The notes under the pieces were generated by a model, which was not told where the DNA came from, made no database searches, and worked only from the letters and a program-made list of their open reading frames with translations. A program made the translations under genes and the position numbers. DNA of 64,000 nucleotides from Bolinopsis microptera (Eukaryota; Ctenophora; Tentaculata; Lobata; Bolinopsidae): NCBI RefSeq assembly GCF_026151205.1, contig NC_087084.1, forward strand, positions 2,327,345 through 2,391,344. The letters are read 5' to 3'. Shown one piece after another: positions 3,267-63,600 of the stretch. How positions within the stretch are numbered: position 1 is the first letter of the stretch; each line of letters begins with the position of its first letter.

Positions 3267-6200
3267 ATGAGTGATGATATTGTGGTGATGGAAGATGGTG
3301 AAAAGCATGGTCTACCAGCATTTCAGCGATCACGTCAGATCACAGACATATTTACAAATGTGGAGAGCATTCTTCCGAGCATGGATTTTTCAGACAATGA
3401 GACTGAGGATGATGATGACTCAGAATCTGTTAGTATTGATCATGAATCCTGAATTCATAAAAAAAACATCGACTTGATTTTGCTTAAATTGCCAATTGGT
3501 ATTCAACTATTAAATTCATCTTATCCTGTTAGGTTGAAGTTGTGACTCGGGAGTATAAACCTGTCATCACTCATGTCTCCAACAAAATTGAGGAAATAGA
3601 CAAGTCTGGTGATATCAACATTGAAGATGTCACCATTTCGGAGGAGTTTGAAAGTGTCAAGAATATTCATGGTAAATTTAAACACCCCTCATTATGGAGG
3701 TTTTACATTGCAACTTATCTTATCTATAGCTTTTGATGTATTCAATGTTCAGAAAATCATATTAAGAATTTGGTGATGTGTAATTATAATAATGAATCCT
3801 ATCAGAGCAAAAGGCCGAAAAAGAAATTACGGAACTTAGTGTTCACAGCTTCATTGACTCTCTTGTTTGCCAAATCGCTGAACAACCACCCTCTAAAAAG
3901 GTTAGTACTGATTTAGTAAAACCCTGATTTAGTGCGTCCCAATACTGCAAACCGCTGTTTATCACGGCAATTATCTTCCCAAATTAAGAATTAACATAAT
4001 ATAAAATATATATAAAATTGCGATTTATTACACAGACCCTGATTAACCACAGCTTTTATCTTTCCCCAAAGTCCGCAGTAAATCGGGGTTTTATATCATA
4101 TTATTAAAGTGTCAAAGAGACATAAGTGGTGTTGTTCCAGATTGGGATACCTAAGAATCGAATTATATTCTGTTCAGTGTGAAAACTTTCTTTTAAATTG
4201 ATTGTCAATAAAAATTGAGTCAGATCACTAAAGTTAATTCTGCGGTTTCAAATTAATTTTATGCTTTGTTTAACAAAAGCTACCTTGTGTTCATAAGTAT
4301 TGTTCTGATTAAAAGTGTTGGTTCATCTGTTTATAAACACTGAGATTAATTAAATTATGATTAATTATGATTATAATTATAATTAATTCACAGGCTCCAG
4401 ATTACAAGTTGGAGAATAACACAGATCTAGATCTCGATCAACTTATTGGTCTGTTGGAAAGCAGTCACGACATAAAAATTGAAGGTTTGTTGTTAAATTA
4501 ATATATTATTATTATATGAGTACATCAAAACTGTGGTACTATTCTTAACAGATACCCACTAGCCTCAAAGTTATCAGTCGTATATTTTGATAAACATATA
4601 TCACAATAATCTGTGAACATTTCAATCGTTCAAAATCATTACTAATATGCATATATCAAGATTATTTAAAATCTGACAGTTTTACCAACTAATTTTCTTG
4701 TAAAATACTTTATAAAGAAAAAAAGCACACGTTCCCATCAGTAAATAGCTGGTGAAAGTTGAATGAGTTTCCGCAGGGGCTTTATATTTGTCCACCATGT
4801 CAATGAACCGTCCTTCACTTCCCACTTTGTTTAAATTTCCTTTCAGCATCCTTTTCTGGGTATCTGTCAAGTCACTCAGTGGTTTTGTAGGAGGACCCAT
4901 AGGAAGACCTGTAAGAAATAAAATATTAAGATATTAACCCTGTAGGCTTACAGTGTACCTAGCACATCGTTAGTCGTATCAAATGTATAATTTTATGGTA
5001 TTATGGACCATGCACATTTATCATGTATATATGATGTACATTTGCCATATTTTTGCCTAATATCGGTGAATTTTACTCACCTACAAAATCCATAACATGG
5101 GTCAAAGAAGACATGAGTTCTTGGTCTACTATGATCGATTCCATGAAACCTTCCAAATCGTTTTGTATTACCTGTATAATGTTTTCAGTCATCTGGAAAT
5201 CGATTTCTAAAAACTATTGAGCTATGTAAAAACATTAAACTGATAATATCTTACTGTGTATAAAACGAGACGATATATATCTGTTGCCACTTTACTGACA
5301 CCACGACTTTCCGTCGAATGCTTGGGTCGAATGCTTTTATATGGGTTTGAGACCAGTATGAAGCAAATCGGAAAATATATAAATATTGTCTCTTGACACC
5401 ACTTTAGTGTTAGACCTGCTATGTTTGACTAGGGTATCAATAATTCCGCTTATAATATTTAGTGTATTTACCCTACACAAACCTTTGCTTTTCTGATGTC
5501 ACCCCTAAGCACGAGATCAACAATCCGCACCATGACACCGTTCACAAAGTTAGTTGGTCCCGTAATGAGAGACACTTCAGCTCCCTGAGTCTGGGCACCT
5601 ACAAGTGTCATGTTCGGGAACCCGAGAAATATCTTTAGATCCAGTTTCACCTTAATTAATTAATCAGTTTCACCTTAATTAATTAATTGGTTGATTAAGT
5701 TTCATCTGAATCAGAGGAGAGTTTTACAAAATACTGTGACAGCATGTTAACAATTCATAAAACGGTTTTAAACTCTTTGTTATGCTTATTTTTGGTATAG
5801 TTCCCTTATTTAGTGGTATTCATGAAATGAGGGTATTCGAGGTTTGCTTAATCAATATCTTACTAATTTCTTGTAAACACTTTCGTCATTGGCAGTGTAC
5901 TTTAAGCCAATGAAATTGCTAAGTCTTCTTTTGAGATTCTTCATAAGTTCGACTACATCATACTGCAGCCTTGTCAGCGAAGGAAAATGGTAGTACAGAA
6001 CTGGCTTTCCATTGCAGGCCTCTCCTTAGAAAGTAAAACATTATTCGGCAATGAAGTCTTAAAAATGTCAACCAGTTCAAACTTCAACTTATCATAAATG
6101 TGGGTCTTAGAGCCTAGCGCACACTGAAATATTTCTAATCATAATTTGATCTGACCTGCATCACACAGGAACTGGAGTAGTCCAGTGTAAGTGAAGTAAG

Positions 6201-8971
6201 GGTAGAACATGGGAGTGGAGAGCATAATCCCATCAACTCCTTCCATACCAGATAGGATCTCACACAGAGATAAGGTGTCTTGGTAGTTTACCCCACCTGT
6301 TGAATCATTCAAACTATGGGATCTCCCTTTAACTATCGTGAAAAATACTACTGTTGACATCATAACGTGAGATTTTTTTAAATATTCGAAAATATATGAA
6401 AATTTTTGAAAATGTTTGAGGAATAGTCATTTGTCTCTACCTGCATGAATGATGACAGCGATACGTCGATCAGCAGCTACAATGAAAGCTCTTGCTACAG
6501 CTAGTCTCTCAGTATTGGATAGCAGTAAACCCTGCCCTGCTGATCCACCAACTAGAATACCTAGATATACAGGGTGGTAATTTAATCAGGGCCACCTTTT
6601 ATATTCTGATTTCGATCCTGAACCTATGCTGGCAAGTTTACTCCCTAAACAACGAAAACTTATCATAACAAAGTTTAAATTATTATTTTGACAAACCGGT
6701 CACTCCTGAGTTGATGAGGTGGGTAATGTAACTGGGGATGATAGAATAGTTCACATTCCCTTCCTCGTTACGTGGTGTGAAGACGGGGGCCACATACCGG
6801 GCTGATAAGATCTTATCTCTGGTGTCCAACATTCCCGGTTAAAACATTTCCTTGTGGTTTTGAAAGAGGAAAATACACAGCTCTGTAGGACAAGCAGTCA
6901 CAAGTAGTCACAAGTAGTCAAAAGTAGTCACAAGTAGTCACAAATACTCACAAGTAGTCACAAGTATTCACAACTGGTCATGGTCACTGCTAAATAAACA
7001 GCACGATTAATCCTCTTCAAGACTACTCTAAAGGGGTAACATTCTCATTAACTGATCTCTGTTCACAGATAACAACTGTATTTTCAGAAGCAGAACACGA
7101 TAGTGACGAAGAAAGTGACAGCAGCACCAGTACTATCGTAATGGACGAGCTAGCTAGGTACTAACTACTAGATACTGTTATGTGTTGTTCAGATAACCAT
7201 AAGTTGTGGTTAATTCTACTCAGCGCTGCAATATTTTAAACATTAACTGCAATGAATACCGTACTTGTAAATTGTAAAACTGATTTTATATTCAATTACT
7301 AAATAGTGTTAGTGTGTTACTTATGGATTTATCAAAAAGGGCACCAATTTGTGATGTAATATTGGGGGAGGTCAATTTTGGCTAATTTTGGATTTCTTAG
7401 TGGATTTTCTTAGTGGATTTTCTTAGTGGATTTTCAAAAGTGGCCATAATTAGGGTGTCCATAATTAGCCAAAATTAGCCAAAATATACAAAAAATATAC
7501 AAAAAATGTTTTCAGGATTGCTGAAACGTATGATGGACTGGACAACACGCCTGCCACCCCACGTGCAACCACTCCAAACAGCCGTTCCAGCACTCCTAAC
7601 AACAAAGTAACAACACCTAACAACAAAATAACAACACCTAACACCAACCCAACAACACCTAAAAACCAAGATAAGAGTGAGCACGAAGCAAGAAGCTCCG
7701 TATTGGCTGATTTCTCTGAGAGTGCAGGTCAGTGCGTGGATTGAACTTGTTAGATAAGGAATTGTAAAATTGAATAAGGGTGTTGAATTTCTTGGCTAGA
7801 ATTTCTGAATAATATTACAGTTGAACAGCATTTTTTGAAATTATAAACCACGAAACATGAATCACTTTGAAGATATTAGTTGTTTTAAATCATACGGTCT
7901 TCTCTTTTCTATCTCATCCCATATTTTTAAAAGTTCGAATATTTATACACAATATAGATCATAATATCATTCCTATCTAAAAATTACCTTAAAATCGACA
8001 AGAGTATTTTATTTTGCTTTTATTTTGATTTTACAGGATCTCCAGATAAGACTAAAAGAGATACAGTTCTAATAGATCTACTTTTACAGGATCTCCAGAT
8101 AAGACTAAAAGAGATACAGTACTAATAGATCTACTTTTACAGGATCTCCAGATAAGACTAAGAGAGATACAGTACTAATAGATCTACTTTTACAGGATCT
8201 CCAGATAAGACTAAAAGAGATACAGTACTAATAGATCTACTTTTACAGGATCTCCAGATAAGACTAAAAGAGATACAGTACTAATAGATCTACTTTTACA
8301 GGATCTCCAGATAAGACTAAAAGAGATACAGTACTAATAGATCTACTTGTAAAAGGATCTCCAGATAAGACTAAAAGAGATACAGTACTAATAGATCTAC
8401 TTTTACAGGATCTCCAGATAAGACTAAAAGAGATACAGTACTAATAGATCTACTTTTACAGGATCTCCAGATAAGACTAAAAGAGATACAGTACTAATAG
8501 ATCTACTTTTACAGGATCTCCAGATAAGACTAAAAGAGATACAGTACTAATAGACCTACTTTTACAGGATCTCCAGATAAGACTAAGAGAGATAAGGTAC
8601 TAATAGATCTACTTTTACAGGATCTCCAGATAAGACTAAAAGAGATACAGTACTAATAGATCTACTTTTACAGGATCTCCAGATAAGACTAAAAGAGATA
8701 CAGTACTAATAGATCTACTTTTACAGGATCTCCAGATAAGACTAAGAGAGATACAGTACTAATAGATCTACTTTTACAGGTTCTCCAGGTAAGACTAAAA
8801 GAGATACAGTACTAATAGATCTACTTTTACAGGATCTCCAGATAAGACTAAAAGAGATACAGTACTAATAGATCTACTTTTACAGGATCTCCAGATAAGA
8901 CTAAAAGAGATACAGTACTAATAGATCTACGCCCCACTACACCTGAACCTACACTAAGACGATCTTCCAGG
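3267..8971 (+). CDS. Gene A exons 1-7: acidic, low-complexity N-terminus
   Basis: Exon 1 starts MSDDIVVMEDGEK and ends in an Asp/Glu run (NETEDDDD). Exons 2-4 are hydrophilic and probably helical (VVTREYKP, ELSVHSFIDSLV, LDLDQLIGLLESS). Exon 5 is another acidic Ser patch (HDSDEESDSSTST). Exon 6 is a Thr-Pro-Asn repeat (TTPNNK units, six or so). Exon 7 (SPDKTKRDTVLIDL...TPEPTLRRSSR) is the unit amplified in the 53-bp array just upstream of it. Phases run 0,1,0,1,2,1,0 and all join. No catalytic motif. Intron 4 (4485-7087) contains the complete antisense lyase gene. Confidence 0.78.
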
Positions 8972-11900
8972 GTAAAGAAGTTTAACGAGTTATCTGTTTT
9001 TAGCCAGTTATTTTTATTAGCCAGTCTTGAGCTTGTCTTTCTAGACTGTTTACGCGAAAAAAGTTGTTACGTTTATCATATTTTTGTCTGAATCGCGTAA
9101 AAAGTTTACGCGATTATTGAGACGAAAAATATGATAAATGTTATGAAATAATGAAAAATTATGCACATCGGTCTTGCATGGTAAATCAGTCAGTACGGAA
9201 AGTTAATAAGTAAAGATCCTATGTTGACCAGTTCTTTCTGAAACACAAGTTCATGTGCATGCTATCTGAATACAATATATGTACACATTTCATCCACTAC
9301 ACAAGCATTACTTCTACAATATGATGGTGTGTTGAGAGCAGCTTGTCAAGTACACTACAGGCATTATTGTCAATCTCCGAGCTTGTACAAATGAAAGTCC
9401 AGGTTCTAAGACGTTGATTTATTTATAGTAACAATTATTGGTCGTGACGGATAATGTTATTTTCAGAGGATTGTTCCGCCGTATTTGACGAAAAAGTTAC
9501 AAAGAGCCCCTTCAAGTGACAGGTAAATTAGCTGTCAAGGGAGAAAGTTGTGATATGGAATTTAAAGGAGCCTACTTAGTACTTATTGGCTGAATTTTCG
9601 ATCGAAAGAAACGTTTAAAATGACAATTATAGAATTATATATTGTATATGTTTCACAACAGTTTTTGGATGGTGGTGACCTTTGGTTGTTTTACATATTT
9701 ATGTATAATCTATAATAATAATATTGCAATTTATTTCTTATTTTAATTTCAGTGATGACGAGACCGAAGACATTGCTTGGGAAAGTATGAGAAGAAACAT
9801 GAAGAGTACTTCATTTTTTCCTTCTTCTAAATCTTGTGGCACCGATGAAAAGATAGACTCTCCCTCGACTAAACCTACAAGTGTGTCAACTGGTGTTTCA
9901 ACTCAAAGTTCTGGTGTTTCAACCCAAAGTACCGGAGTTTCAACTCAAAACACCGGAGTTTCAACTCAAAACACCGGAGTATCAACTCAAAGTACCGGAG
10001 TTTCAACCCAAAGTTTTGGTACTTCAACTCAAAATAGGATTTCCCTAAACAGAAACTCCGGAAACATCTCCACAACTGTCAACTCCAATTTTATTATCCA
10101 GGAAATGAACGGCTCAACAAGGGTTCTTAAATCATCAACAGAACTTAACACTACAACAGTTCAAACGAACGGATCTGCAACTGGGCGAGCTACTTTCTCA
10201 GATGATCAAAGTAATAAAGAAGACCTCCCATCCAATCTGAAAAGAACTGCTAGAACGAGATCCAAAGAAGGAAAGAGACGTTTAAAAAGAACATCAGACG
10301 AAACAAATGATCCAGAGAAGGCTTCAAACAAGAACAACACCGCTCACATCATAAACAAGAAGTGTGTCGCTTGGGCAGATGTAGTTGACAATAATCAAGG
10401 TAACGAAAACGAAATCGTCAAACAAAAGGATAATGCTCAAAACAAAACTCAAAAACAGATCGAGGATGAAATAATCGTAAAGAAGAAAAAAGAAGAAGGA
10501 GCGATCTTGAAATCACAGCGGTTGGAACAAATGAGAGTAAGAGAAAAACGGGCTGAGTACCGTAAGTAACTTATATATGTATAATACGTTTTTGTTAAGT
10601 TTGTTACACTATTAGATCATTCATGGCAATCATCCTACTATTGATTATTGAGTTATAAAAATTACCTGAGCTCCGGGAATTATCAAGCGGAGCCCGAAGA
10701 GCCGAAGGCATTATTATATTATAATATTTTCCGGTTCTCCGATTGGAAGGGGTGTAATCCGATACGTGCGCATGATACAATATAGTGTCTAATATATAGA
10801 ACGCCAGTGTTATTTGTTTTACAACTTGCCGCCAGCCAGTCTGAGGTCTATGCTGATAATACCTTGGCTTCCCTTGCGGGATATATCGGCAAATTATCAG
10901 CTCTCAGTGTCCGAGACTTTTAGTGGATATATATACATATCACCGGAGACTCGCGGGCGGAACAAAATATTGCACGCGCACGCGCGTGCAATATTTCATA
11001 TGTCCCCGAGGGCGCTAGCCCGAGGAGGACATATTTTCGTATAGCACGGAGGGCCCATTGGGCCCGAGTGCTATACGATTTTTCCGCCCGCGGGTCGAGG
11101 TGATGTGGATTATATCCACCAGCGGGCGTATTACAGTTAATATATAATTTTATAAATAAACAATGGAGCTTGTATAAAAGTCAACTATAGAAAAGGTCGC
11201 CACTAATTGTTGTAACCATGGTAACACGTCACGTGTTCAATGTAAGCCAATCATAAAGGGCTGTGTCGTATATAGGGGCTGGAGATGCACTGCATTCCTG
11301 GGCCGTGGGAATAATGAATGTAATGTCAGTGACGATGAATATCAATAATATAGGGGGATTATAGTGCTGATGTGTATCATTATGTAGTGTGTTATAATAA
11401 CTTTGATATATATCAAAGTATCATGTCATCTGATCACGAGCTGCATGAGCAGCCCTACCGGACACAAAAATAAAATGTATATAATATAGTCAGTGTAATA
11501 AGGAATTTCGAATTCACATGGATACAATACAGAAACTGAAAATATTTTAGAGAACTCCGGGCGATATTGCTACTGGTCAAATTAAATGTCACTTGTTAGC
11601 GGGCTATATCATGAGCGGGCTGTAGAGATATCGGGCCCTTTGACAGCGGGCTGGTGAGAGCCCGCTATGCGAAAAAGCGCACGCTGGTGGATATAATTCC
11701 CGGAAGGTATTATACCTTTAATAATAGCTTACACGAATGATATTCACCAGGAATAGTTAAAGACATCATTATTATGCCTCCACAATTGTTGTGCTGTATA
11801 GTTTGAATCCACATTTGCATTGTTCTGATTGGTAAAATTTAGTTTTCTTTACATAAAGAAACGGTCCGATCATAACCTGAAAAAAAATATTTGAAAACCT

Positions 11901-14900
11901 GATTCCTTCAGGGACGAGACTGGAAGAACAGAACCGAGACCGGTCATCCACCCAGCTTATCCTTGACATAGAGGAGAGTTACAGTGAAAGATTACACGAT
12001 GTGTCAGAAGACATGTTGGATAGCTGCACTGACCAACTACTGGTACTACAACTTATGATAGATAACCAAGGTGCGCGGGGCTAAAGTTTTGTTAATAAGT
12101 TACCTATTTTAAGTTTCTTAGTTTCTGTCATGTATCATATTATTAAGATATTACATTTTTATGATGTTGCGTTATGTTCTGATGATATAAATCAAGAGGC
12201 TTGCATATAATGAACATATTGACACGGGTGCAGAGTTGAGTCTGTACGGAACCTAGTAGTTTCAGATCCTTGTTTAACTTGCCGTACAGCAAGGTCATCC
12301 ACTACTTTAGCCCGGCGAGGCACATAACTCCCTCTACAACTCCATGACAAATGTTTCATATATACTAGCCGAGTTCACAAGAATATATCCTTGTGTTTGA
12401 GAAGAGCTCGTTAGAACTGCTTCCTTTCCCTTCAGTATCCCACAGTCTCTCGAGTTTCGTAACTGCCAGAGAACTCTCTTAAACAATTACTAGACTCGGT
12501 GATTATAAATCAAGAGGCTTGCATATAATGAACATATTGACACGGGTGCAGAGTTGAGTCTGTACGGAACCTAGTAGTTTCAGATCCTTGTTTAACTTGC
12601 CGTACAGCAAGGTCATCCACTACTTTAGCCCGGCGAGGCACATAACTCCCTCTACAACTCCATGACAAATGTTTCATATATACTAGCCGAGTTCACAAGA
12701 ATATATCCTTGTGTTTGAGAAGAGCTCGTTAGAACTGCTTCCTTTCCCTTCAGTATCCCACAGTCTCTCGAGTTTCGTAACTGCCAGAGAACTCTCTTAA
12801 ACAATTACTAGACTCGGTGATTATAAATCAAGAGGCTTGCATATAATGAACATATTGACACGGGTGCAGAGTTGAGTCTGTACGGAACCTAGTAGTTTCA
12901 GATCCTTGTTTAACTTGCCGTACAGCAAGGTCATCCACTACTTTAGCCCGGCGAGGCACATAACTCCCTCTACAACTCCATGACAAATGTTTCATATATA
13001 CTAGCCGAGTTCACAAGAATATATCCTTGTGTTTGAGAAGAGCTCGTTAGAACTGCTTCCTTTCCCTTCAGTATGACAGAATATTGCGATAAAAGATCAT
13101 GCTCTATAATAAAATACTGTACTTAACTTTGGTACCACTCTTAATTCTTATAACACTATTTCTCTGCCCCCACTATTTCCATACCTCATTTCATACTTAT
13201 ATTTGTTATTAAATTATCATTTAAATTATCATTTAAATTATTATTTAAATTATTATTTAAATTATTATAATTAAATTATGTATAATTCAAATTATCATTT
13301 AAATTGTTATAAAATAATTATTTTATTATTCCAGGAGAGTTATCCTCGCTACCACCAGAATACTACTCATACTGTTACAATGACATACCAACAGTTAGCT
13401 ACTACGGTACCGAGGGAGTTCTAACTTGGATGCTTACCTCTCAGAATAAGCCATTCCAAGTGATCGCTGCTAGACTTACTTTTATCAAGTTAGAAGTTAT
13501 TTGTATTAAGTTATATTAAGTTATATTAAGTTTTTTATATTAGCACATTTTATAGTAATCTGTAGTTTGGAGAGTGCTGTTTTGTCAACTCTGATAGGTT
13601 ATTAAATATGGGTACTAGTTTTTAAGACAGGTGCCAACTTGAATATACTGTAACCTGGTTAGCAGCTTTACTGAAAAGAAAAAAGCGATCTCTTAAAATT
13701 CCCTCTTGAACAAAAAACACACTCTGTATAAAATGTCCATGTCTCAACGATCCACCAAATAGTTTATTTCAGCAATTGTTTGACGTACGTGTTCCTGGTG
13801 AAGAGTTGCTCGAACCCTATCTCCTCTACTTTCTATAAAGATGTCGGACTGTACCTCTCCTCTCACTCCATAGCTCAGTCAGATCCCCAACTCTTCAAGT
13901 GAGAATACCACCAACTTTTAATAAAAGAAATGTGTTCTCCATTCTGATTTCATATCTGTTTTCTGATTTCATATTTTGTAAACCTCTTAAATCGGTTGGC
14001 CGTTCGCGTCAGCCAGTTTCTTACCAGTAGTAACTTACCAGTAGTTACCAGTAGTTACTTACCAGTAGTTACCAGTAGTTACTTACCAAAGTAATCATTC
14101 CCAGATCCACTCTACTGAACCCACGTGACTACCCGCTCTGTGAACCACTAAACAAGTTGTTCCTGGTATCTAAATACAACAAGAACTTGTGCACGTGGTT
14201 TACTGCTCAGCCTGCTTGGTATACGTGTAACTTGGCTCACGATAAGGTCAGTTCTCATTTCTATACGTGTAACTTGGCTCACGATAAGGTCAGTTCTCAT
14301 TTATATACGTGTAACTTGGCTCACGATAAGGTCAGTTCTCATTTCTATACGTGTAACTTGGCTCACGATAAGGTCAGTTCTCATTTATATACGTGTAATT
14401 TGGCTCACGATAATGTCAGTTCTCATTTATATACGTGTAATTTGGCTCACGATAAGGTCAGTTCTCATTTCTATACCTGTAACTTGGCTCACGATAATGT
14501 CAGTTCTCATTTATATACGTGTAATTTGGCTCACGATAAGGTCAGTTCTCATTTATATACGTGTAATTTGGCTCACGATAATGTCAGTTCTCATTTATAT
14601 ACGTGTAATTTGGCTCACGATAAGGTCAGTTCTCATTTCTATACCTGTAACTTGGCTCACGATAATGTCAGTTCTCATTTATATACGTGTAATTTGGCTC
14701 ACGATAAGGTCAGTTCTCATTTATATACGTGTAATTTGGCTCACGATAAGGTCAGTTCTCATTTATATACGTGTAATTTCTATACGTGTAACTTGGCTCA
14801 CGATAAGGTCAGTTCTCATTTATATACCTGTAACTTGGCTCACGATAAGGTCAGTTCTCATTTATATACCTGTAACTTGGCTCACGATAAGGTCAGTTCT

Positions 14901-17900
14901 CATTTATATACCTGTAACTTGGCTCACGATAAGGTCAGTTCTCATTTATATACCTGTAACTTGGCTCACGATAAGGTCAGTTCTCATTTATATACCTGTA
15001 ACTTGGCTCACGATAAGGTCAGTTCTCATTTATATACCTGTAACTTGGCTCACGATAAGGTCAGTTCTCATTTATATACCTGTAACTTGGCTCACGATAA
15101 GGTCAGTTCTCATTTATATACGTGCAACTTGGCTCACGATAATGTCAGTTCTCATTTATATACGTGTAACTTGGCTCACGATAAGGTCAGTTCTCATTTA
15201 TATACGTGTAACTTGGCTCACGATAATGTCAGTTCTCATTTATATACCTGTAACTTGGCTCACGATAATGTCAGTTCTCATTTATATACGTGCAACTTGG
15301 CTCACGATAAGGTCAGTTCTCATTTATATACCTGTAACTTGGCTCACGATAAGGTCAGTTCTCATTTCTATACGTGTAACTTGGCTCACGATAAGGTCAG
15401 TTCTCATTTATATACGTGCAACTTGGCTCACGATAAGGTCAGTTCTCATTTCTATATGTGTAACTTGGCTCACGATAAGGTCAGTTCTCATTTATATACG
15501 AGTGCAATTTTTAAGTTAGAATAACAAAAGTAACGAGTCAGTTTTGAAAATGGGTTTTACTTATTGGTTTTAAAAATGTACCGATAAGAGAGGAGAGTGT
15601 ATGATGTTAAGTCTGAGTTCTACAGATTTGCAGAGCGCCCTGCTGTCACATGTCTGTCACATGTCTATACAATACATGTCACATGTCTATACAATACATG
15701 TCACGTGTTGTCACGTGTCTATACAATACATGTCACATGTGGTCACATGTCTATACAATACATGTCACATGTGGTCACGTGTCTATACAATACATGTCAC
15801 ATGTCTATACAATACATGTCACATGTGGTCACGTGTATATACAATACATGTCACATGTCTATACAATACATGTCACGTGTTGTCACGTGTCTATACAATA
15901 CATGTCACATGTGGTCACATGTCTATACAATACATGTCACATGTGGTCACATGTCTATACAATACATGTCACATGTGGTCACGTATCTATACAATACATG
16001 TCACATGTGGTCACGTATCTATACAATACATGTCACATGTCTATACAATACATGTCACATGTGGTCACGTGTATATACAATACATGTCACATGTCTATAC
16101 AATACATGTCACGTGTTGTCACGTGTCTATACAATACATGTCACATGTGGTCACATGTCTATACAATACATGTCACATGTGGTCACATGTCTATACAATA
16201 CATGTCACATGTGGTCACGTATCTATACAATACATGTCACATGTTGTCACATTTCTATGATACAATCACTCTTCCAGGTTAACGAAGTCCACGGTACAAA
16301 GACAAAACAGAGGATGACACTGTCAGAGATACAGAACAACGTGTCCCCTGTTTCCAGTACTGAGTTCTGTGTTTCCACATTGGCTGGGGGCATTCTTACT
16401 TCTCAGGTATATAATATCAACATTCAACATAGACTGACAAAATTTTCTTATCGTCATTACATTTTGTTCGAAGTGGAACCTACCAAAAATCTACATACGG
16501 TTTCCTGAAAAATCTGTACGATTTCCTGAACGTTTACAAACGTTAAAATCTTATTGTTAATTATGTATATAATAATTGTTTTATGTATAATTAATAATTA
16601 AAAATCACTTACTCTGAGTAAATTATAGAACGTTCCGAGTGCAACTGATTTTCAGGCGGGTTTATTCTACGTGTTGTCGAGTATACGTGATACCCAGCTG
16701 GAGATATCAGCACTTAGACTGGTACAAACTGTATATACTGGAGTATACTGGAGTATACTAGAGTATACTAGAGTATACTGTCCGAGTATACTGGAGTATA
16801 CTGTATATACTGTATATACTGAAGTGCAACTGATTTTCAGGCGGGTTTATTCTACGTGTTGTCGAGTATACGTGATACACAGCTGGAGATATCAGCACTT
16901 AGACTGGTACAAACTGTATATACTGGAGTATACTGGAGTATACTGGAGTATACTAGAGTATACTAGAGTATACTGGAGTATACTGGAGTATACTGTATAT
17001 ACTGTATATACTGAAGTGCAACTGATTTTCAGGCGGGTTTATTCTACGTGTTGTCGAGTATACGTGATACACAGCTGGAGATATCAGCACTTAGACTGGT
17101 ACAAACTGACACATCTCAACAAACTCTTTGTCTGGTACTGTCAGGGTACTCGGCTATTGGCAAATGGTCAGGTAGGAATACATTAGTTGCTAGTTACTAA
17201 TTAGTTATTAGTTGCTAATTAGTATAGACATGAGTTACCTCCATGCCAGGGCATTCAACCTGGGATGAAATGAATGAAATGAGGTATCTATATCCCGCTT
17301 ATATGATTAACCAACAGCTCAAGGAAGGTGGTTAACCATGTCAGAGCGGCTGACTGTGAGTGATGTGAGCAAATGTGCAAAAATGAACAAGAGTATAACT
17401 CAATATAAGGCTAAGATTCATCTTTAGATTAAGATATTGCTTTCATACATTCGGTGAAATATGCACGTTCGTGTTATAATTTTCTAGCATTGTATATCGT
17501 CACCTACAAATAGAAAGGGCTTATGTCGAAAAATGTCGTTTTGAGATAATCAATAAAAACCTATTTACGGAAATGGAAAAAATGACTGGCCTACACTCTG
17601 AAAATGTTCCTGAAGCTTTTCAATTAATTGGGGTAATTGATTTAATTTTGACATAGGCCCTCATAGGCCCTTTAAAAAAATATTCAATACATAGGCCACT
17701 CTTAATTAATTGAAACATCTTACATGTGAGAATCGGTACAGGGCGTATGTGTACATAGGTCCTTTTAACTTTTCAAATTATTTCTTTAAACATCACATTC
17801 CAACAATTTGTTAGGGCATATGTTGACTTAGGCCCTTTCTACTTTTCAAAAACATCACACCTCAACAATTTGTTAGGGCATATGTTGACTTGGGCCCTTT

Positions 17901-38405: not shown

Positions 38406-38408
38406 TCT

Positions 38409-39838: not shown

Positions 39839-39950
39839 ACCATATAAGGCGTAATTAAGAGCTGCAGCTAGCTCGGTCTCTATCACTTTCACTAGCTGCA
39901 TCTAGCACGTGATATTTGCACAGCTAATTACACGCCTTATACGGTATAAT
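39839..39950. repeat. Foldback sequence of about 110 bp
   Basis: ACCATATAAGGCGTAATTA pairs with the reverse complement at the right end (CGCCTTATACGGT). The middle has CAGCTAG/CTAGCTGC pairs. Possibly a tiny MITE. Confidence 0.6.
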
Positions 39951-40594: not shown

Positions 40595-40701
40595 TTACTG
40601 GGCCGTGCTCAGCCTGTCATTTTACCTGGGGACCCCAGGCTATTATGTTCATAAACATAATAAAGATTTGGCGAAATGACAGGCTGAGCACCGCCCAGTA
40701 A
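40595..40701. repeat. 28-bp inverted repeat, 51-bp loop
   Basis: 40,595-40,622 pairs with 40,674-40,701 with one mismatch (TTACTGGGCCGTGCTCAG / complement). Hairpin or MITE remnant. Confidence 0.75.
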
Positions 40702-51600: not shown

Positions 51601-54600
51601 ACTGTTCAGTTTCGTGAAAACAACCAATCACAGCTCAACATGACATCACTTCTAACACTTAACAGCTCAACTAAACTTATATCACCTAACTAATTACCTA
51701 GTACTAATTACCTACTAATTACTTACTAATTACCTACTAATTACCCAACTATCCGGTAGTTAAACCTGGACACAATGTTAGCTGTCTCTCTCTAAAGACA
51801 CACTAGTGCTCTAGTGCGTGATAACTCCCTTGGGGATTACAATTGATAATGCGGTTAAATATGTCCTCTTATAAAGCTTATATATAAAGCTGTAACACTA
51901 GATAATATACAGGTAACTGTAAATATAGAGACCTACTCAAGACTTCAATAATTGTGTCTCAATATTTGACTTGGTGGTATTATCCTTTGTAGGACAGTTG
52001 GATAATGGATATGCATAAAACTCGAATTAACGATAAGATCCTAAGATACTGTGTTTATATTCTGAGGTTTAATAAGTTAGAAGTATTCCACTTTCAACAC
52101 GTTGCTTATCGGCGAGTTGGTGGTTACGAACGAATAACGATCAGTATAAGTAAATCAAGAACTACACTAATAATAAGTAACAATTAATATAATTATTACT
52201 AATATAAAGATAAATGGTTAATTAGCATAAAAGATATTTAACCAATTAGTTTACAGCAACGACCAATAAGGCTCTGTGAAAAAAAGTGCACCCTTTAAAA
52301 GGTCCATGAAAATAGTTATTTATTCGTAACGCAGAACACTTGTATTTCTAGATAGTATTATAAAAATTAAACAGTTATGATTATTACTCCTTGTTAATTT
52401 TGTATTTACAATAATTCATCAATTTTGATTCATTAGAGTACTAATCATATTAGGTACTGATGCCTGATGGTTAAAGAATTTAAAGAAAATGATGGTTAAA
52501 GAAAATATTCTACCAGCGTTATAACCTTACTTAAAGATGTATTTGAAGTCTACCACTTATTCGTTGCCTGATAACGCGAAATAATGATTCTTGAATTATC
52601 GCTCCTTATCAGCTAATTATTTACTAATTATTTACCCGTGATAATTCATTCTGCTGAAGCTGGCCTCCTCTATCATAAGGGTGTCTGCTCCTGAGCACAC
52701 TATAGCTGTTTTAGATTCCTGGCATAACACCATCTCGTACGCTCCTGAACATAATTATGTTAATTAGTAGATACTTAGCATGATTGGTAGTTAATTAGTA
52801 TTATCAGTCAGCATTAGAACCAGAAGGTAAGTAAATAACAGCGTAAAAAGTATTTTCGAAATGGTAAAAATACTGTAAACATTTGAAGTTTGCGAAGCCG
52901 CTCTGATAAAGAAATCTGAGGACGCCGCTTTTTCCTTTCTCCGAACTCCGCGGTAAATCGGGGTATTACTGTCCGATTAAGCGTACAGTTTGGAGAAAGA
53001 TAAACATTACGGTTATTAGGGTTGTGAGGTAGATTGGGGTTGTGACTTTTGTGTCCAAGCCAGATGGTTTTCTACCGCACAGTAATGATTAAATGGTTCC
53101 CAGTCATGACTGACAAGCACTCAAGTAAGGGGTAAATAGGGGGATCCTCACAAGCTTGCTTGAGATCAGCCGACAAAGGATCGTGTAATGTAATACCATA
53201 ATACCTTTGCTACAGAGATTGCGAGAAGCACAAAATTAAGCCAATGTATTGTGTATTACAATGTATTATGTATATTATAATAATGCACGAAGGTTTCTTC
53301 ATGATAGAAGTGTAGTAATTTGATACACGTTGCTCATCATGGCCAATCAGTAGGCGTTTGAATTTTGATAATAATATGTCGCTAAGACACACGTAAAATT
53401 ATCAGTGTTCAGTGTTCATGACGTTTTTGATTTGATCTATTTATGTTAAATACATATTTTATAATTATTTGATAAAGTTATTACATTCGTAAACATTGAC
53501 TGGCTAATTAAATAAACCAGTCCCCAAAAAAAAGAAGTTTCGGGGACAACGTCTTGAGTACATTATAGAATTAAAAATTTAGACATTTTTAAATATTTTG
53601 GGGTACGGTAAATCGCCCGGTTTTACTGTAATTGGAAGGTGGATAGATAAAACCATGGGGCATGGTCATGATTGAGACCATGTTACAAGTAAGAAAGTAA
53701 AACAACATCAGGATTCAGGAAAGGGTACCCACTACCTATTGTATGGGAGGAAGAAAGAAGAAAGAAGAAAGAAGATAATTTTGTGAGTGTAATATTGTAG
53801 AGTGTAGAGGTACAAAGCTGCGGGTCGCGGGATTTGAGTATCACAAAGCTTTAAAAACTGTTTCTATAAACCCAATGTATAGTAATATAGTGTTTATAGA
53901 ACTACTAGTTACTGACCAGACTTTACTTCCTATTTAGAGCGTTTATGCGTTACTCAGTACACCCCACTAGTACATACATTACAATACAAATGTTTCATTG
54001 GCTATTTCAGTTTAGAGGAACGAACGTTACGAAGGCCATTTGTTTATATATTATACAGCCACTCCCAGCTTTCTTCATGACCTTGTGACATTAACGATCC
54101 AGAAATATACTGGACATTTTTGGAGTTTACAAGTTATCGTTTTCTGTATAATTAATTATAGGGTATCAAATCGAATTATGAAATTTCCGGAAATAGGGAA
54201 TGATTAATATCCGACTGTGATACTATGATGCAGTATGTAAGATGCAGTATGTAATATGCAGTATGTAATATGCAAGTTACATTCTATTCATTTTATCACA
54301 GTTTTGGATTTTCTTATTTCACCACAGATTATGATTGATGGGCTAGACAGTGAAACACGCAAATTATGTAGTGTATACTTCGTAAGATTACATTATTAGC
54401 TACAATGGAATTAAGTTGGTTAGTTTAATTAGTACTAAACAAATGAAGATCTAAAATGCCTCAAAAAATCGAGAATCAAATAACCTTATAAAAAAATACA
54501 CGTGGTAAATGGAAATGAACTACACAAAAATATAGCTTCAAAAAATGAATTAAAAACTAAGAACCTTATCTTTCAACTATGCATCTATTTAGACCCAAGC

Positions 54601-57600
54601 AATTAGTTCTATACTTCTCAATATACCTAAATTCCTCCCTATTTAATCCCCCAGGGTTACATTCTTTCAAAATGGCAAATTTATAGTTGTCAATAGTAAA
54701 AATGTCACTGTGATGTTCATAGGCATGAATCGAAAGGGCTGATTTATTACGATCCTCTACTTTAAAAGAAGCTCTGTGTCCAGAGCTTGTTATTTCACCA
54801 CGAAACAGTAGACACTAAAGCTAGAGCTATATAAAATATTTCTTTATGCGTATAAATACAAATGCGTGTGCTCCATTGTCTTGAATTTAATAATATCACG
54901 GCGTCTTCGCGTTTGACTTGGGATATACAATATCTAGAGTATGCTACAAATCGATTATAACCTTTAAGCAAATCCTATTTTGTACCAAATGGCCTTCAGT
55001 CAAAAAAGAAATTCTTTCAAATTCATTGTAAAGGTAATCCTTATTTAACCATCACCTTAATAATCTCAGAATGTGTGTGTGTCTGATCGTCTGTCTGTCT
55101 GTCTGTCTGTCTGTGCGTGTGTAATTTCCCGGTAAGAGTTACGGGACTGGTTTTTTCGGTATAGTGCCGACAAAACTCTGACGAAGCCGATAAGCAATTT
55201 TTTTTAAATCGGCCGGTGGTAAGTGGTTTAATTGATGGTTTTGTACCATAAATGTTACATAAAATGGCTTGAGCAGCTTAATCAAGTTACGGGGCTCGCT
55301 CTCTCCCATTACTGCATAATATTATGTAGCGTTGGTACGAATAGATCATAACTACGTGCTGTCATGGGTACTTTAAACTTATTAGGGGAAGGAGCGCTTA
55401 TAGCGGTCTGTTTGAACTGTAGAGAGAGTTCATACTTTCATACGGCAATGAAATGTATGTTTTCAAATATGCGGGTGTGGTGCGGAGTTAATAAGGGTTA
55501 ATTTCTATTGATTTTAAGATACTATTGTCTAAGATACTATTAGATACGTGACGGCACTCCGAATAGAATTGCTCACCTAATGCGGGTTTTGACTCAGTGG
55601 CTAAATACTCCTACCCTTTTTAACTGCGGCAGTGAAATCCCGGCCGAAGGCCGGGTTACACTAGTATTCATATAATAATGCCGTTGAAACCTAAATCAGG
55701 GTTATGAGTACCTTATCAATTGAAGTTTTTAAATATTGAAATACTTATATACATAAATAAATTCTTACATTTGTTACACGCTTCGACGTTTTAAATATAC
55801 CCAACAAAGATGTACATGGACATGTAAGTCATTCAAGCGAGACTTAGTGTGGAAATATTAAACTTATGCAGTTTTAAATCAGTTTAAATTCCTTATCAAT
55901 ACAGCGTATTGAAGCTTTAAAACTTTGAATACTTTTAATCCAGGGGGACTGTTAAAAAACACACGTTACACATAACGTACGCAATAGATAATAACTTAAT
56001 AATGTAATACGTGAGCGTATTGTGTTATTTTAAGAAAATGTATGTTTTTTGGACAAACGGAAAGAAAACTACTTGGGTGTAGAAAAAAACTACTCGAAAT
56101 TCTCGGACCATTTTAATCGAAAGATGTATTCCAAATCAAAGAGTATTCCAAATCAAATTATAACATGAGACGAGAAAGTAACCTCGCTACAACGTCCTTT
56201 TGAGTTCTGTATTTTATTTTCGACGGAGCAAAAAAATGCCGCGATTATAATACATTGTTGGTTTGACATTCAGAGTTTCACAGTGGTTAACATTTCATTT
56301 AGATAATATATGGTGCCTGGTAACATGTAATTATATAATATATGCTTTCCCTTAAACCAGCCAATGATTTGTAACAGCTTTATAGCTTTATTAGGACTTC
56401 ATAGCAAATGCTAAGATATCACACAATGCACTGTGAAATAATGATAGAATTATAATTTCACCAGTGCTTGAAGTGATATTTCGTAAATTTAAGTGCTTTG
56501 AAAGATGCTGAAGACAGTATTAATAATTATCCTGAAGAAGAATGCCCAAAATGTCAGCAGTTTAGCCAGTAATCACGAAGAGTGATTAAAAAGTGTGATC
56601 TCAAGTGTGATCACGAAGAGGAATATAAAATCAGGGTTGCTTGAACTCCACATACCCTTATGCGGCCTTGACTTAGCACCTGGGATTTGTATTGCATCTG
56701 CCGTACCGTCTGCTGCAAGATATTATCACATATCAACATAATATCACAATCACATAATATCATTTAAATCTTACTCAGCTTATCGTCTATCTGTTGGTTA
56801 GCAAAATGCGAATATACACTGATTAGGAGGACCACATTGATAGAATACTTGGTCCATTCTACAGAAAATTGTGCTTGGAAACTACTATAGCATAAGATAT
56901 ATTTAGCTCATCTGACTTAAAGATAAGGGCAAAATGTACAGCTAATATGTATGTAATGGTTATTGTATTGTCTATCATAATTGCTTAATAATATATGGTT
57001 GCCTTGAAATTGGCTCAAGTAAAGTCAATGCTTAGCCAAAACATGTAAGGAACCTGTAAGGAACATGACTTAGAATGAGTATTGATTTGACATTATTCAT
57101 GACATTCTGATAAACACTCATCATCTGAACACTACCCTCTGAAGCAACCCTTTCTATTTCTAACGATCTGTAACTCTGTAATGACCTTGATTGATGATTT
57201 GAACGATTTTTCTGTAGAAGCCTCTTATTGCCATAAGATGACAATGTAATCGATCTTATCGCCATAACTCCATAAGATGACAATGTAATCGAAAAGTCAA
57301 TAGTCTCGACAGGACGTGTGCCAAAGATAGATTTGCACTGCTTTTATACGTGTGATAGAAGCGAGTGATATAGAATTCGCTACTCCCCTAATAATAGTAT
57401 TGGGGGAGGAAATTGGAAAACTTATCAGATTTACATTTTTACCTTAGATATAATAGCAAAACTTGGCCAAAACGTAACTTTAGGTAATAATATGTTAACG
57501 ACCCCCAATGAGCCAGTCAGTTCAGAGAGATATCCCAGCAACATTGTTAACTATATAATTTGATGGAATCATGACGTTCTTCACATGTAGCTTCATTATA

Positions 57601-60600
57601 AGACACACCTACAAAAGGTTACACTAATTACAACACTACAACTCTATTACATTTATTGAGAATTATGTAATGTAGCGTGATGGAAATATTTCCCAGTGTA
57701 AACTCGGTCACAAGCCCTAGTTTGTTGGTCAATTGCTATCTCCAAATCAAATTTCACAACAAAAATCAGGGTGAACCCTACCCCCTTAATTAGTTACACT
57801 GGGAAATGGCATGGTTAATTGGTTAGGACGTGTTTAGTGTATACAGGAATGTAGAGAATTTTCATATCAGGAAAGTGCGGAAAGCTAAGCGTTTAGATTC
57901 AAAGCAGATATTTAGCAAAGCGCAATTTCTTTGTTTCTTTTTTTCTAAAGAACAAACTACTAGCAAGTTACCACTGTTAAGCAGGTAACTTTTATTGGCA
58001 CGATCAACGCTAAACTTTGTTTTTATTGGATTTGGAGCTTTCATTAAAAGTAAGCATGATAAAAACTTACAATAGTAAGTGGAGTCTAGTTTAGATTCCT
58101 CAGTAACGTTAATAAGATGCCAAGATTCCTCAGTACCAATCTCAGGCTCTGTAACGACTTTTTTAGGCTCTGTAACGACTTTTTTAGGCTTTGTAACGAC
58201 TTTTTTAGTGACATATTTAGGTTCCTCAGTGCCAATCTTAGGCTCAGTGGTGACTTTTTCAGGTTCATGAACAAATTTTTCAGGCTTAGTGACAAATCGA
58301 TGAGGCTCTGTGATGACGTTCTCAGGCTCTGTAACGACTTTTTTAGGGTCGGTGATGACTCTTTCAGGCTCTGTAACTATTTTATTATGCTCTGAAACGA
58401 AATGATGCATGTCAGTTACTGCATTTTTGTGCTTGGAATGCCGATGATTATCACCAGAAACTGTGTTTTGAGCTTCAGAATCTTGGTTAGTTGAAGGAAC
58501 ATGGTTAGTGGCGGTTTCTTTAGGTTCTGTTTTTGGTTTAGTCGTAGGATCCGCCACCCAATCTGGAAAAAGGAAACTAGCAAATAGTTATCAATCTTAC
58601 ACCATTATTTGAAGTTTGAACACATATTACCGCAAGAAAAAGGTTATGGGTCCTGTAAAATGGCAAAGAAAAGAGTAGTGCGGAGTGCCCTGGACTAGCG
58701 TCAAATAATCGGATTATCCTAAGCAGGAGCAAAGTTTTCAGCGCCTCTTGGCAGCTGCAGCTGAATGCAAAAATCATATTTTCGTATCTAGTTATTCTAG
58801 CTACGCTTTCTTATTTAGATAGTTAACTTAACTATTAAAAAAGTTAAGTTTGTACTGCATCTTTGCATCTTACTAGTTGAACCAAAACTCGCCACAAACT
58901 GATTTCTCCATAGAAGTATTAAAACTAACCGAAGTGGTTACCATATTTAATCTAATCGAAGAAATTGTCAGATTTAGGGTTTGCTAGGCTCCATGATAAT
59001 GTTCAAAATAATATGTTGATCACCCTTCGACAAGGACCCGGACGATAGGCTTGTCATTCTCGGTATTTCTGGAGCGAGCATCGCAAGCTTTGATCCCAAA
59101 AATAACATTTGACTTGTATTACTTGTGTAATGGTAACCTTTTACATATTTGCAAGATGCAAAACATTCGTGATCCGAATCATCGTCAAACAATTCAATCC
59201 AGTCACCGATATACTTATAGCATCTCACCTATTATAAAGTTATAAATAACTGCACCGAAATAGATACATTGCGTAATATTATAATAAATTTGACTATTAT
59301 AATAATATAATGAATAAAAATAGCGCGAATGAAGCTATATTACAGTTCAATGCAGTTAGATGAAAACGGCAAAATGTTTGCTTTTTGCCTACAAGTATCA
59401 TATTATTAATTCTTATTGTCATTATAATACATTTGTAACCTATTAAATACATTTCATGTGACCCTAAATTATCCACATGTCCCCACATTATGTGGTTTAG
59501 TTTCATCTGACTGAGCAGCTGGTAATAACGGTTTAGTCTGAGGACGCACAGTATAATAAATGTTACTGTAAGGCTAGAGTTTCCTTTTGTAAGAAGTGGT
59601 AGTGGTATTACCGGTGTGTTCAAGATAAAAATTCGACCTCACGGTGCAGTGGTATGACATAAACCATATTTGAATCGTCCGTTCATTGAATTAAATATCA
59701 AAATCAGTTAATAATGTAGGGTATTAAACTTCTTAATACAGTTCTAACTCCACCCCTTTAATATCAAGACGATTAGTGATTATTTATCAACCCTGCGTTT
59801 TGTGGAGAGGGTACTAAATTGAAGTCATTTTCACCGACACCATGGCAAAATCAAATTCAAATAAATAACGAATGGCACGCTGCGGAAATATGTTTTGTAT
59901 TACGAATCATAAACTGTGTCGGGCAACGAGAATTATTATATTATTTTGGGATTTTTAATTTTTGTCGCCCGCAAGATTGCTTGACAGTACCTTAATAGAT
60001 AGGGTACTTACTGGTACAGTGGGGTGCCATATGTTTTCGTTATTCCTAACGGCGCGAGTTTGCGTGCAGGTCACGTGATATTGTTAGCAGTGAGTGTAAT
60101 TACGAGTCTCTGGATAATGTACGTACGTTGTGGTGAGCTGGTGAGTTTTGGTGAGTTGGTGAGAGAGTTGAGCGTAACTTCGGATCCCCCTGTAATGTGC
60201 TCAAACAATACATTCGTGGATATAGGTTACTAGGCAGTAACTAGGTAGTAACTAGGTAATAACTAGGTAGTAACTAGGTAGTAACTAGGTAGTAACTAGG
60301 TAGTAACTAGGTAGTAACTAGGTAGTAACTAGGTAGTAACTAGGTAGTAACTAGGTATTTATAACTTATTGGTGAGAGCTTTGAGCCCAGTGAAGGATTT
60401 TCTAGGTTCAGTAACAACTTCCTTGGGTTTTGTGATGACTTTTTAGGCTCTGTAACGACTTTTTACTTTTTTAGGCTTTGTAACAAAGTTAGTGGTCACA
60501 AATTTACCAGGCTCTGGGATGACTTTTTTCAAAACCCAAAATAGTTCAAATAAATAACGAATAGCACGCTGCGGAAATATGTATTGTATAACGAACAATA

Positions 60601-63600
60601 AACTGTGTTTAGCAACGTAGCTTATAGTGAGAATTATTATATTATTTTATAATTTATACATTAAGTTTAAAAGTGTGTTTAATATAAATATTAGGCTCAT
60701 CTGTAATACAATATTATAATGTCCATTATAGGTGTCCTGTAAATTATGAAACATCGAAAACAAAATACAGCTAATCAACGAGAAATCACATAGATGTGCT
60801 CGCGAAACATACGCGGTCTTAATTATAGTCAACACTTGCGTGAAGTAATCAGAATGTTAGTAACCTTGCATTCATCGATAAACTAGCATAAACTTTATTT
60901 ATCATGCATCTTTTCAGCTGCTTGAAAATCTCAGAAATTAATGCATATTTTATACAGCTCATGTTAAATAGCTTAAAGGAAGCAAGCTAAAGAAAGCATT
61001 GTAAATTTAAAAATTGTATTAATTAATCAATTAAAACGCACCTTTATCAGTTTTAGGAGGTAAAGCAGCCTCGCTCTCATTGGGACACTCCGTAGCCTGT
61101 GTAACGGAGTTGTCAGGCTCGTTACACTTTCCTGTTATCCAGTTCTGTTTCCAGCGAGATGTTCCGTCACTGCACCTGCACACGTGTTGTTACAGAGACC
61201 AGAGATACACAAACAATGAACGGGCCGGGTTAAAACAGATAAGAGACCAGAGAAACACAAACAAATAGGGCTGGGTTAAAACAGATAAGAGACCAGAGAA
61301 ACACAAACAAATAGGGCCGGGTTAAAACAGATAAGATACCAGAGAAACACAAACAAATAGGGTCGGGTTAAAACAGATAAGAGACCAGAGATACACAAAC
61401 GATGAACAAATAGGGTCGGGTTAAAACAGATAAGAGACCAGAGAAACACAAACAAATAGGGCCGGGTTAAAACAGATAAGAGACCAGAGAAACACAAACA
61501 AATAGGGCCGGGTTAAAACAGATAAGAGACCAGAGAAACACAAACAAATAGGGCCGGGTTAAAACAGATAAGAGAGCAGAGAAACACAAACAATGAACAA
61601 ATAGGGCCGGGTTAAAACAGATAAGAGAGCAGAGATACACAAACAATGAACAAATAGGGTCGGGTTAAAACAGATAAGAGACTGCAGGCGAGTGTGTTTA
61701 CCGTATATAATATGTTATAGAGTCAATAGCTGTTATTGTAACATAAATAAATAAATAATAAATTCTAACACTTATTGAACGCTTTGGCATAAATAATAAA
61801 ATATAAGAAATATAATAAAATGTAATAAAATAATAACTCTGTATAAAATTGCAGTTATTAAACTAGCTAGACTAAATAACGGTGATGCCTTATCAAATTA
61901 TGGGTTTCTAGACACCCAGTATATTGATAACCAAATATTTATAACTTGACTTGAGGTGTTAGTGACATTTAAACATATTTAGGGGATGGCTGAGCAATTG
62001 TCCAAATAAAGCTATGATTGAACCACGAATTTGTCGCTAGTAGCAGTATACGAAGGAAGGTGGATTCCGGCTAGGATCGTTGGTGCTAACTGCTAAGTTA
62101 TATATCATAACTTCAGCTAAAACTTCTGATAAAAAGCCTGTGACTAATACAGGTAGTCTCTCGACACGAAACTTTTTTTAAAAGTATACTGTAAACATTA
62201 ATATTTGAACATCATCTGGGAATGTTAAAAAAACAACTACATAATTAAAATAAACATTAAATTAGTAATGTTTTAGTTTAGAGTGAGACTTACTGTTGCA
62301 AGTAATTAGTGACGTTTTGCAGTTAACAATTAAAGTTGGACTTACTGTTGCACGTAATAAGTAATGTTTTGCAGTAAACAATTAAAGTTGGACTTACTGT
62401 TGCAAGTAATAAGTAATGTTTTGCAGTTAACAATTAAAGTTGGACTTACTGTTGCACGTAATAAGTAATGTTTTGCAGTTAACAATTAAAGTTGGACTTA
62501 CTGTTGCAAGTAATAAGTAATGTTTTGCAGTAAACAATTAAAGTTGGACTTATTGTTGCAAGTAATTAGTAATGTTTTGAAGTTAACAATTAAAGTTAAA
62601 CTTATTGTTGCAAGTAATAAGTAATGTTTTGCAGTAAACAATTAAAGTTGGACTTATTGTTGCAAGTAATTAGTAATGTTTTGAAGTTAACAATTAAAGT
62701 TAAACTTATTGTTGCAAGTAATAAGTAATGTTTTGCAGTGAACAATTAAAGTTGGACTTACTGTTGCACGTAATAAGTAATGTTTTGCAGTTAACAATTA
62801 AAGTTGGACTTACTGTTGCACGTAATTAGTAATGTTTTGCAGTTAACAATTAAAGTTGGACTTACTGTTGCAAGTAATTAGTAATGTTTTGCAGTAAACA
62901 ATTAAAGTTGGACTTACTGTTGCACGTAATTAGTAATGTTTTGAAGTTAACAATTAAAGTTAAACTTATTGTTGCAAGTAATAAGTAATGTTTTGCAGTA
63001 AACAATTAAAGTTGGACTTACTGTTGCACGTAATAAGTAATGTTTTGCAGTTAACAATTAAAGTTGGACTTACTGTTGCACGTAATAAGTAATGTTTTGC
63101 AGTAAACAATTAAAGTTGGACTTACTGTTGCACGTAATAAGTAATGTTTTGCAGTTAACAATTAAAGTTGGACTTACTGTTGCACGTAATAAGTAATGTT
63201 TTGCAGTTAACAATTAAAGTTGGACTTATTGTTGCACGTAATAAGTAATGTTTTGCAGTAAACAATTAAAGTTGGACTTACTGTTGCACGTAATAAGTAA
63301 TGTTTTGCAGTTAACAATTAAAGTTGGACTTACTGTTGCACGTAATTAGTAATGTTTTGCAGTAAACAATTAAAGTTGGACTTACTGTTGCACGTTTGGG
63401 CACCAACTACAGTTAAATGTAGTCTCTAACGTTGCACAAGCTGCACAACTCTGTGCGGTGGCGCAAGCTGAAATTATTATAAATTAATAATTTAAATTTA
63501 ATACTTAATATATATAAAGCAAATCATTTTTTTTTTCAAGCCTCATATTTCTTCGTGTCCAAAGGCAACACATTATTATAAATTTTAAAAATTAGAATAT

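Follow-up and report, generated by a model that had tools for sequence, protein, structure and literature searches.

Tandem arrays across exon-intron junctions of the ctenophore Bolinopsis microptera: probably tolerated duplications, with an excess of array ends just inside introns

A 64-kb stretch of the genome of the ctenophore Bolinopsis microptera (64,000 nucleotides of contig NC_087084.1, positions 2,327,345 to 2,391,344; hereafter, the window) contains three multi-exon genes in which tandem repeats lie across splice sites or right next to them. This arrangement raises the question of whether some process amplifies DNA at exon-intron junctions or whether junctions are places where ordinary duplications survive. 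The second answer appears probable: tandem duplication of the ordinary kind would be tolerated at junctions because splicing at the copy next to the exon leaves the message as it was. The number of arrays that straddle splice sites is close to what such tolerance predicts; what is left over is that more array ends than expected fall just inside introns.

Arrays at the junctions of the window

The arrays were called by Tandem Repeats Finder (TRF), and the junction coordinates come from gene models based on frame continuity. Seven arrays contain a splice site, four end next to one, and one donor is copied at a distance:

5642-5687, minus strand: 2 x 23-bp duplication including acceptor 5650 of the NPL-like gene; 9 bp of the unit are exonic; the upstream copy leads to a stop
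8029-8930, plus strand: 17 x 53-bp array including acceptor 8885/8886 of gene B; each unit has 45 bp of exon and 8 bp of intron
14220-15500, plus strand: array of about 30 x 42 bp including donor 14246 of gene B; in the model used, 27 bp of each unit are exonic
16638-17108, plus strand: block of acceptor and exon start present three times, at spacings of 185 and 192; exon starts at 16656, 16841, and 17033; TRF unit of 185
26767-26873, plus strand: 2 x 52-bp duplication including acceptor 26870/26871; a matching array at 42586-42692 in a duplicated segment
49882-49984, minus strand: 2.5 x 41-bp array including donor 49978 of the SUEL-lectin gene; 7 exon bp; both decoys lead to stops
62287-63395, minus strand: 21 x 52-bp array including donor 63386 of the SUEL-lectin gene; 10 exon bp; GT kept in 14 of 20 intronic copies; 14 of 14 matched decoys lead to stops
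15644-16258, plus strand: 22/32/54-bp array that ends 19 bp before acceptor 16277
19285-19544, plus strand: 12 x 22-bp array that starts 6 bp into the intron after donor 19278
27999-28577, plus strand: array of an 18-bp unit, 579 bp long, that ends 5 bp before acceptor 28582; its counterpart at 43820-43904 has 85 bp
61194-61682, minus strand: 46/53-bp array that ends 18 bp from acceptor 61175
29085-29330, plus strand: exon end and donor present again about 200 bp further downstream, together with unrelated filler; absent from the paralogous copy at 44.4 kb

The initial annotation had described these structures correctly. All seven junctions that it placed within duplications are covered by TRF arrays in in-frame gene models, and the four neighboring arrays (at 16277, 19278, 28582, and 61175) lie 19, 6, 5, and 18 bp from their sites. 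The nonadjacent donor copy at 29.1 to 29.3 kb is also real; it is an insertion of about 200 bp flanked by a repeat of about 38 bp and is found in only one copy of the segmental duplication. The claim that the units are unrelated and do not represent a single spreading family holds as well. The unit sequences are unlike each other, and the two units that were searched had no match listed beyond their own loci (the search skips very common words), so that the spread of one repeat family was rejected.

Straddling arrays and the tolerance expectation

The window had been singled out as striking, which biases its P values; the fair test comes from a gene sample that was chosen without regard to repeats. 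This sample consists of kinesin, dynein, and myosin genes (49 loci, 237,005 bp; median intron length, 226 bp). It contains 227 introns flanked by well-scoring exons, 216 of which have positive scores at both splice sites and form the reliable set, with 432 splice sites. One locus (L040) has no reliable intron, and 48 loci were counted. Arrays fill 14.4% of the bases in the reliable introns; of the 100 arrays that touch these introns, 11 straddle a splice site and 89 do not. Straddling structures are found in 9 of the 48 loci. They include a 33-bp unit with 51 intronic copies past the real donor, GT being intact in each, as well as a 35-bp unit (24 copies) and a 65-bp unit (11 copies). Because the copy number of an array is difficult to assemble, an assembly artefact might be suspected; however, sequence differences among the units make most arrays imperfect, the structures recur in these 9 loci, and one real tandem duplication suffices for each, making such an artefact extremely unlikely.

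The expectation was derived from a tolerance null. Under it, array starts are distributed evenly over the free sequence of the intron and, so that one border may be crossed, over a further unit length minus one at each border. The tests were run under several nulls and thresholds and on several subsets, and all of them except the locus bootstrap treat arrays as independent. Under the tolerance null, the 11 straddles of the sample compare with 8.6 expected (P = 0.23; ratio, 1.28; locus bootstrap interval, 0.61 to 2.12). Stricter splice and exon filters give similar ratios (10 versus 7.8 and 8 versus 6.1 straddles), and introns of at most 400 bp have 2 straddles versus 3.1 expected. In the window, where straddling of one junction is likewise allowed, there are 7 straddles versus 5.0 expected (P = 0.21).

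The coverage by arrays points in the same direction. In the sample, it is lowest at the splice site itself (12 of 432) and reaches 40 of 428 at 50 bp and 29 of 140, or about 0.2, at 200 bp. In the window, arrays make up 21.7% of intron bases, yet only 8 of 105 splice sites lie inside an array (7 of 84 without the duplicated segment). A process that targets junctions should peak at the splice site; coverage falls towards the exon, and straddling therefore needs no such process. Units contain between 3 and 76 bp of exon, with no fixed phase visible. These data are compatible with junctions being places where duplications are tolerated, and nothing in them shows an aiming at junctions.

The straddled sites are 3 donors and 4 acceptors in the window and 9 donors and 2 acceptors in the sample; given the window counts, the donor/acceptor asymmetry of the sample straddlers is not firm.

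Choice among the splice-site copies

In all 18 straddling arrays (7 in the window and 11 in the sample), less than one unit is exonic in the models used, and consequently one splice copy stays at the exon body while the rest are intronic. The message was read with the exon-proximal copy and, for comparison, with matched decoy copies; at 26870, no decoy could be matched. At 5650, 8885, 49978, and 63386, four of the five window junctions with comparable copies, the exon-proximal copy alone is open, and decoys lead to stops in 1, 15, 2, and 14 matched cases, respectively. The 8885 array, with stops for 15 of its 15 matched decoys, keeps AG in 16 of 16 intronic copies.

This retention of splice dinucleotides is general. 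Of the 203 units stepped through in 16 arrays, 177 are at least 60% like the exon-proximal copy, and the other 26 are too unlike it to count. GT or AG is kept in 169 of the 177 comparable intronic copies, versus 165.9 expected from the other dinucleotides of the same units. The decoys are neither purged nor specially kept, and selection against decoy splice sites, another candidate, is not seen overall. Since near-identical decoys persist, the cell would have to pick the exon-proximal copy. Exon definition and proximity rules would favor this copy.

The sequence of events under tolerated duplication might be as follows. Tandem duplication, presumably by replication slippage or unequal exchange, would strike anywhere in this repeat-rich genome, and duplications within coding exons would usually be removed by selection. 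A duplication that is intronic, or that includes a single junction and a few exon bases, would leave the message intact if the splice site nearest to the exon body is used; it would then survive and could expand. The extra copies would remain in the intron as ignored decoy splice sites, probably through exon definition and proximity.

A different view is that selection maintains the repeated splice sites, either for their redundancy or as a source of variable in-frame repeats in the protein. The splice dinucleotide is indeed kept by all comparable intronic copies in 14 of the 16 scorable arrays. At 14246, moreover, the real donor and 12 of 12 further donor copies tested are open in frame, which leaves frame undecided as a guide to the copy used; like the results described in the next section, this case counts against tolerance. 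From its open frame, the 14246 array could conceivably encode a length-variable protein with a 14-amino-acid repeat. However, the overall retention matches the expectation from other dinucleotides, TRF units are a multiple of 3 bp in only 5 of 18 cases, decoys lead to stops at the four window junctions listed above, and the 63.4-kb array has lost the donor in 6 of 20 units. Selection for repeated splice sites is thus very unlikely.

Excess of array ends near junctions

Several results do not fit tolerance as a complete account. A variant null that does not subtract array-filled sequence gives 3.1 to 3.2 expected straddles in the window (P = 0.024 to 0.030) and 7.3 in the sample, compared with the 11 observed. 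Straddles also nominally exceed expectation in four subsets, each one among many tried. In the sample, these are the arrays of at least 5 copies (8 versus 3.9; P = 0.024), of at least 3 copies (9 versus 4.9; P = 0.04), and of at least 100 bp (8 versus 4.1; P = 0.03); in the window, they are the arrays whose units have 20 bp or more (7 versus 3.4; P = 0.015). Finally, array ends are concentrated 0 to 25 bp inside introns, with 24 versus 10.5 expected in the sample (ratio, 2.29; bootstrap interval, 1.59 to 2.95) and 14 versus 5.0 in the window.

When straddles and near ends are counted together, the sample has 35 versus 19.1 expected. The corresponding count in the window is 21, one of which could fall out of range owing to the uncertain donor of exon 17033 (its acceptor is unaffected), versus 10.1 expected under the tolerance null (P = 1.4e-5) and 5.0 if arrays are confined to their own introns. 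Eroded straddlers were rejected as the source of the excess: at 18 near edges, the match to the repeat past the edge is 0.261, compared with 0.247 and 0.276 elsewhere. Nor do the near arrays contain splice motifs above the level of shuffled units (8 arrays near donors and 13 near acceptors). Arrays near acceptors are in fact poor in acceptor-like motifs, with a mean percentile of 0.14 (n = 13) versus 0.44 in 41 interior arrays, a difference that is suggestive only.

These counts divide the remaining claims of the initial annotation, namely, that chance placement is a poor explanation and that a local process amplifies DNA at junctions. The comparison with random placement on the sample loci shows no significant excess of straddling: straddling itself is near the tolerance expectation (11 versus 8.6), and coverage is lower at junctions than within introns and lowest at the site. 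What stands is the 2.3-fold excess of array ends 0 to 25 bp inside introns and, with it, the excess of near and straddling arrays combined, a weaker signal than the suspected amplification at junctions but a related one. The near-junction excess, which tolerated duplication leaves over, may reflect later intron growth or a local mutational bias.

The mutational alternative is a junction-linked process (e.g., breaks, R-loops, or nucleosome-edge stalling at exon borders) that seeds arrays in the first intron bases. It would account for the excess in the sample and for the concordant counts in the window, and the signal is clearest in arrays of at least 3 copies (30 straddling or near versus 15.0 in the sample). 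On the other hand, straddling shows no significant overall excess. Arrays of two to three copies, which come closest to standing in for new mutations, give little signal in the sample (16 straddling or near versus 13.7, P = 0.26, at a minimum score of 36; 12 versus 8.2, P = 0.069, at a minimum score of 50), though in the window they number 11 versus 4.6. We regard such a process as unlikely. Slightly less doubtful, but still improbable, is the proposal that exon-intron borders are true hot spots, with arrays about twice as frequent in the first 25 bp, and that a strict proximity rule lets dozens of splice sites be tolerated.

Intron history is a better, if tentative, candidate; it is compatible with tolerated duplication and would complete it. 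Arrays would be born in short introns that are later grown by transposons or trimmed by deletion. The median sample intron is indeed short, and in the sample, the ratio of observed to expected counts peaks in introns whose nonarray DNA exceeds 500 bp (13 versus 5.0) and is lower in those with less than 250 bp (18 versus 11.7). A large insert has enlarged one intron of a kinesin paralogue from 122 to 1,062 bp. Nevertheless, the excess persists in introns with less than 150 bp of free sequence (12 versus 8.1; P = 0.015), which counts against intron history.

The kinesin paralogues differ in their third intron (positions 1093 to 2155 in L003 and 1100 to 1222 in L004). The L003 insert has repeat-rich inverted ends that are 11-bp tandem arrays; it is not a junction array.

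Relation to mirages and other minisatellites

Minisatellites at exon-intron boundaries have been described in amphioxus under the name of "mirages." They are reported in the Adh3 gene (first paper in 2002) and in globin genes (PMC3087553), with PGBD5 and troponin C genes added later (PMC3902484). Judged from the DNA sequence, the junction-spanning minisatellites of B. microptera are mirages, that is, a known kind in a new host, accompanied here by a rate and one modest residual anomaly. As in amphioxus, the repeat unit spans the exon-intron boundary (in the 7 window and 11 sample arrays), 5' and 3' exon borders are both involved, and the copies carry splice signals. The differences are that the host is a ctenophore, a member of another phylum than amphioxus; that up to 52 consecutive donor copies with GT are found; and that the frequency has been measured against a null. 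In addition, reverse transcription PCR was done for the amphioxus globins, whereas the arrays described here are known from DNA. No report of junction-spanning arrays outside lancelets was found among the papers listed in the literature search. Thus, a curiosity of amphioxus is extended to a ctenophore, at a rate of 11 straddling arrays per 432 splice sites. Runs of 52 consecutive GT donors or 17 consecutive acceptors offer natural tests of spliceosome choice among near-identical sites, and the near-junction excess opens junction-linked mutation to a direct test.

Tandem duplication that carries splice signals is also the basis of a model of intron gain from AG|GT proto-splice sites (Rogers; Gao and Lynch 2009, both as cited in PMC3087553). 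The arrays described here differ in that each covers one border of an existing intron and none shows a new intron. Under that model, an array would span the whole intron, with donor and acceptor in successive copies; not one of the 18 straddling arrays extends to both borders of its intron. Intron creation from tandem AG|GT was rejected as the pattern of the window.

Ordinary intronic minisatellites, which make up 89 of the 100 arrays touching sample introns, have similar unit sizes and purity but contain no splice site. One paper, on earthworm metallothionein (PMC12783039), deals with intronic minisatellites and exon duplications; its available part describes no junction-spanning array.

An arrangement of the type proposed for intron birth is seen at approximately positions 1969 to 2809 of locus L040 (minus-strand orientation), where successive units of a 40-bp array have a good acceptor with a good donor immediately after it (AG|GT). 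In this array, the spliced alignment jumped between copies, and all introns of L040 failed the filter.

Genes and duplicated segment of the window

The genes of the window were rebuilt from the frame continuity of exon chains, with sequence as the sole basis of all models:

7069-31788, plus strand: gene B, multi-exon; three open chains; NDK domain near the C terminus (Pfam)
4682-6832, minus strand: NPL-like gene, 7 coding exons in a single open frame; Pfam DHDPS family, E value of 2.7e-32
48483-63467, minus strand: SUEL-lectin gene, 9 exons found, open frame (Pfam); its PSI match is weak and below the cutoff
42690-46545, plus strand: 3' part of gene B in its second copy, traced to a stop codon; tracing of the first copy gave 3 fewer 3' exons

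Ten exons of gene B (plus strand, 7069 to 16406) form one open frame without a stop, whereas the other two frames are stop rich. The further open chains are found at 19115 to 20988 and 26871 to 31788 in gene B, at 42690 to 46545 in its second copy, and in the two minus-strand genes at 6832 to 4682 and 63467 to 48483; stops are terminal only. Exon 17033 lies outside these chains. Its acceptor (17032/17033) is backed by sequence and frame; its 3' end is uncertain, with donor 17134 or 17171, and only some donor choices keep both flanking frames. A PDB search with the 3' part of gene B gave only weak NDK matches (best E value, 0.053), and a search with the 5' part gave no match. The Rfam search of the window also found no match.

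The 42-bp donor array of gene B is open together with the preceding exon for 481 codons (14079 to 15521) and with the next exon for each donor copy tested. Another intron of this gene contains a 318-bp unit in 2.8 copies with 100% matches (12186 to 13074).

The 26.4- to 32-kb segment recurs at 42 to 46 kb with 95 to 97% identity in the main aligned blocks. Between these paralogous segments, the array beside the common acceptor differs in length, with 579 versus 85 bp, and it ends 5 bp short of the junction. One copy of a duplicated intron contains an element of about 1.5 kb (30000 to 31485) with long terminal inverted repeats, recognized by eye, that is missing from the other copy. An open frame of 1,103 codons between the two gene B segment copies (32163 to 35471, minus strand) matches RVT_1 of the long interspersed nuclear element (LINE) type and an endonuclease; a second LINE-type RVT_1 open reading frame (ORF) is found at 357 to 1703 (plus strand). 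An intron of gene B also holds, on the same strand, a nested single-exon ORF of 377 amino acids (25169 to 26299) that resembles seven-helix receptors by eye and has a subthreshold Pfam match. In the same intron, a block of about 1.7 to 1.8 kb appears, by eye, to be tandemly repeated (21060 to 24600).

Gene sample and other observations

Whole-genome Pfam searches listed 249 exon matches for the sample families (73 myosin head, 109 kinesin, and 67 dynein AAA_6), of which 207 were hand-picked and used (47 myosin, 101 kinesin, and 59 dynein). The matches left out were rows with internal stops, which were also kept from the profiles, as well as unfetched gene parts, paralogous copies, and some others. 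Among the regions, genes with a single exon were passed over, as were some paralogues and some parts of genes with long introns. Position-specific scores for each locus were built with that locus excluded, and exons were placed with our own spliced aligner, whose splice-site weights were trained on the window. Two paralogue loci, L050 and L051, enter no count; their comparison was limited to blastn.

Two further observations concern other gene families. No nuclear-receptor zinc finger was found among the matches listed genome-wide, in a search run without a positive control; the nuclear receptors of Mnemiopsis are reported to lack that zinc finger (PMC3038971). Homeodomain matches number 111 genome-wide. 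On contig C9, positions 1549413 to 1563968 contain five listed copies of one homeodomain match, spaced mostly 2.8 to 2.9 kb apart, which looks like a recent tandem gene amplification.

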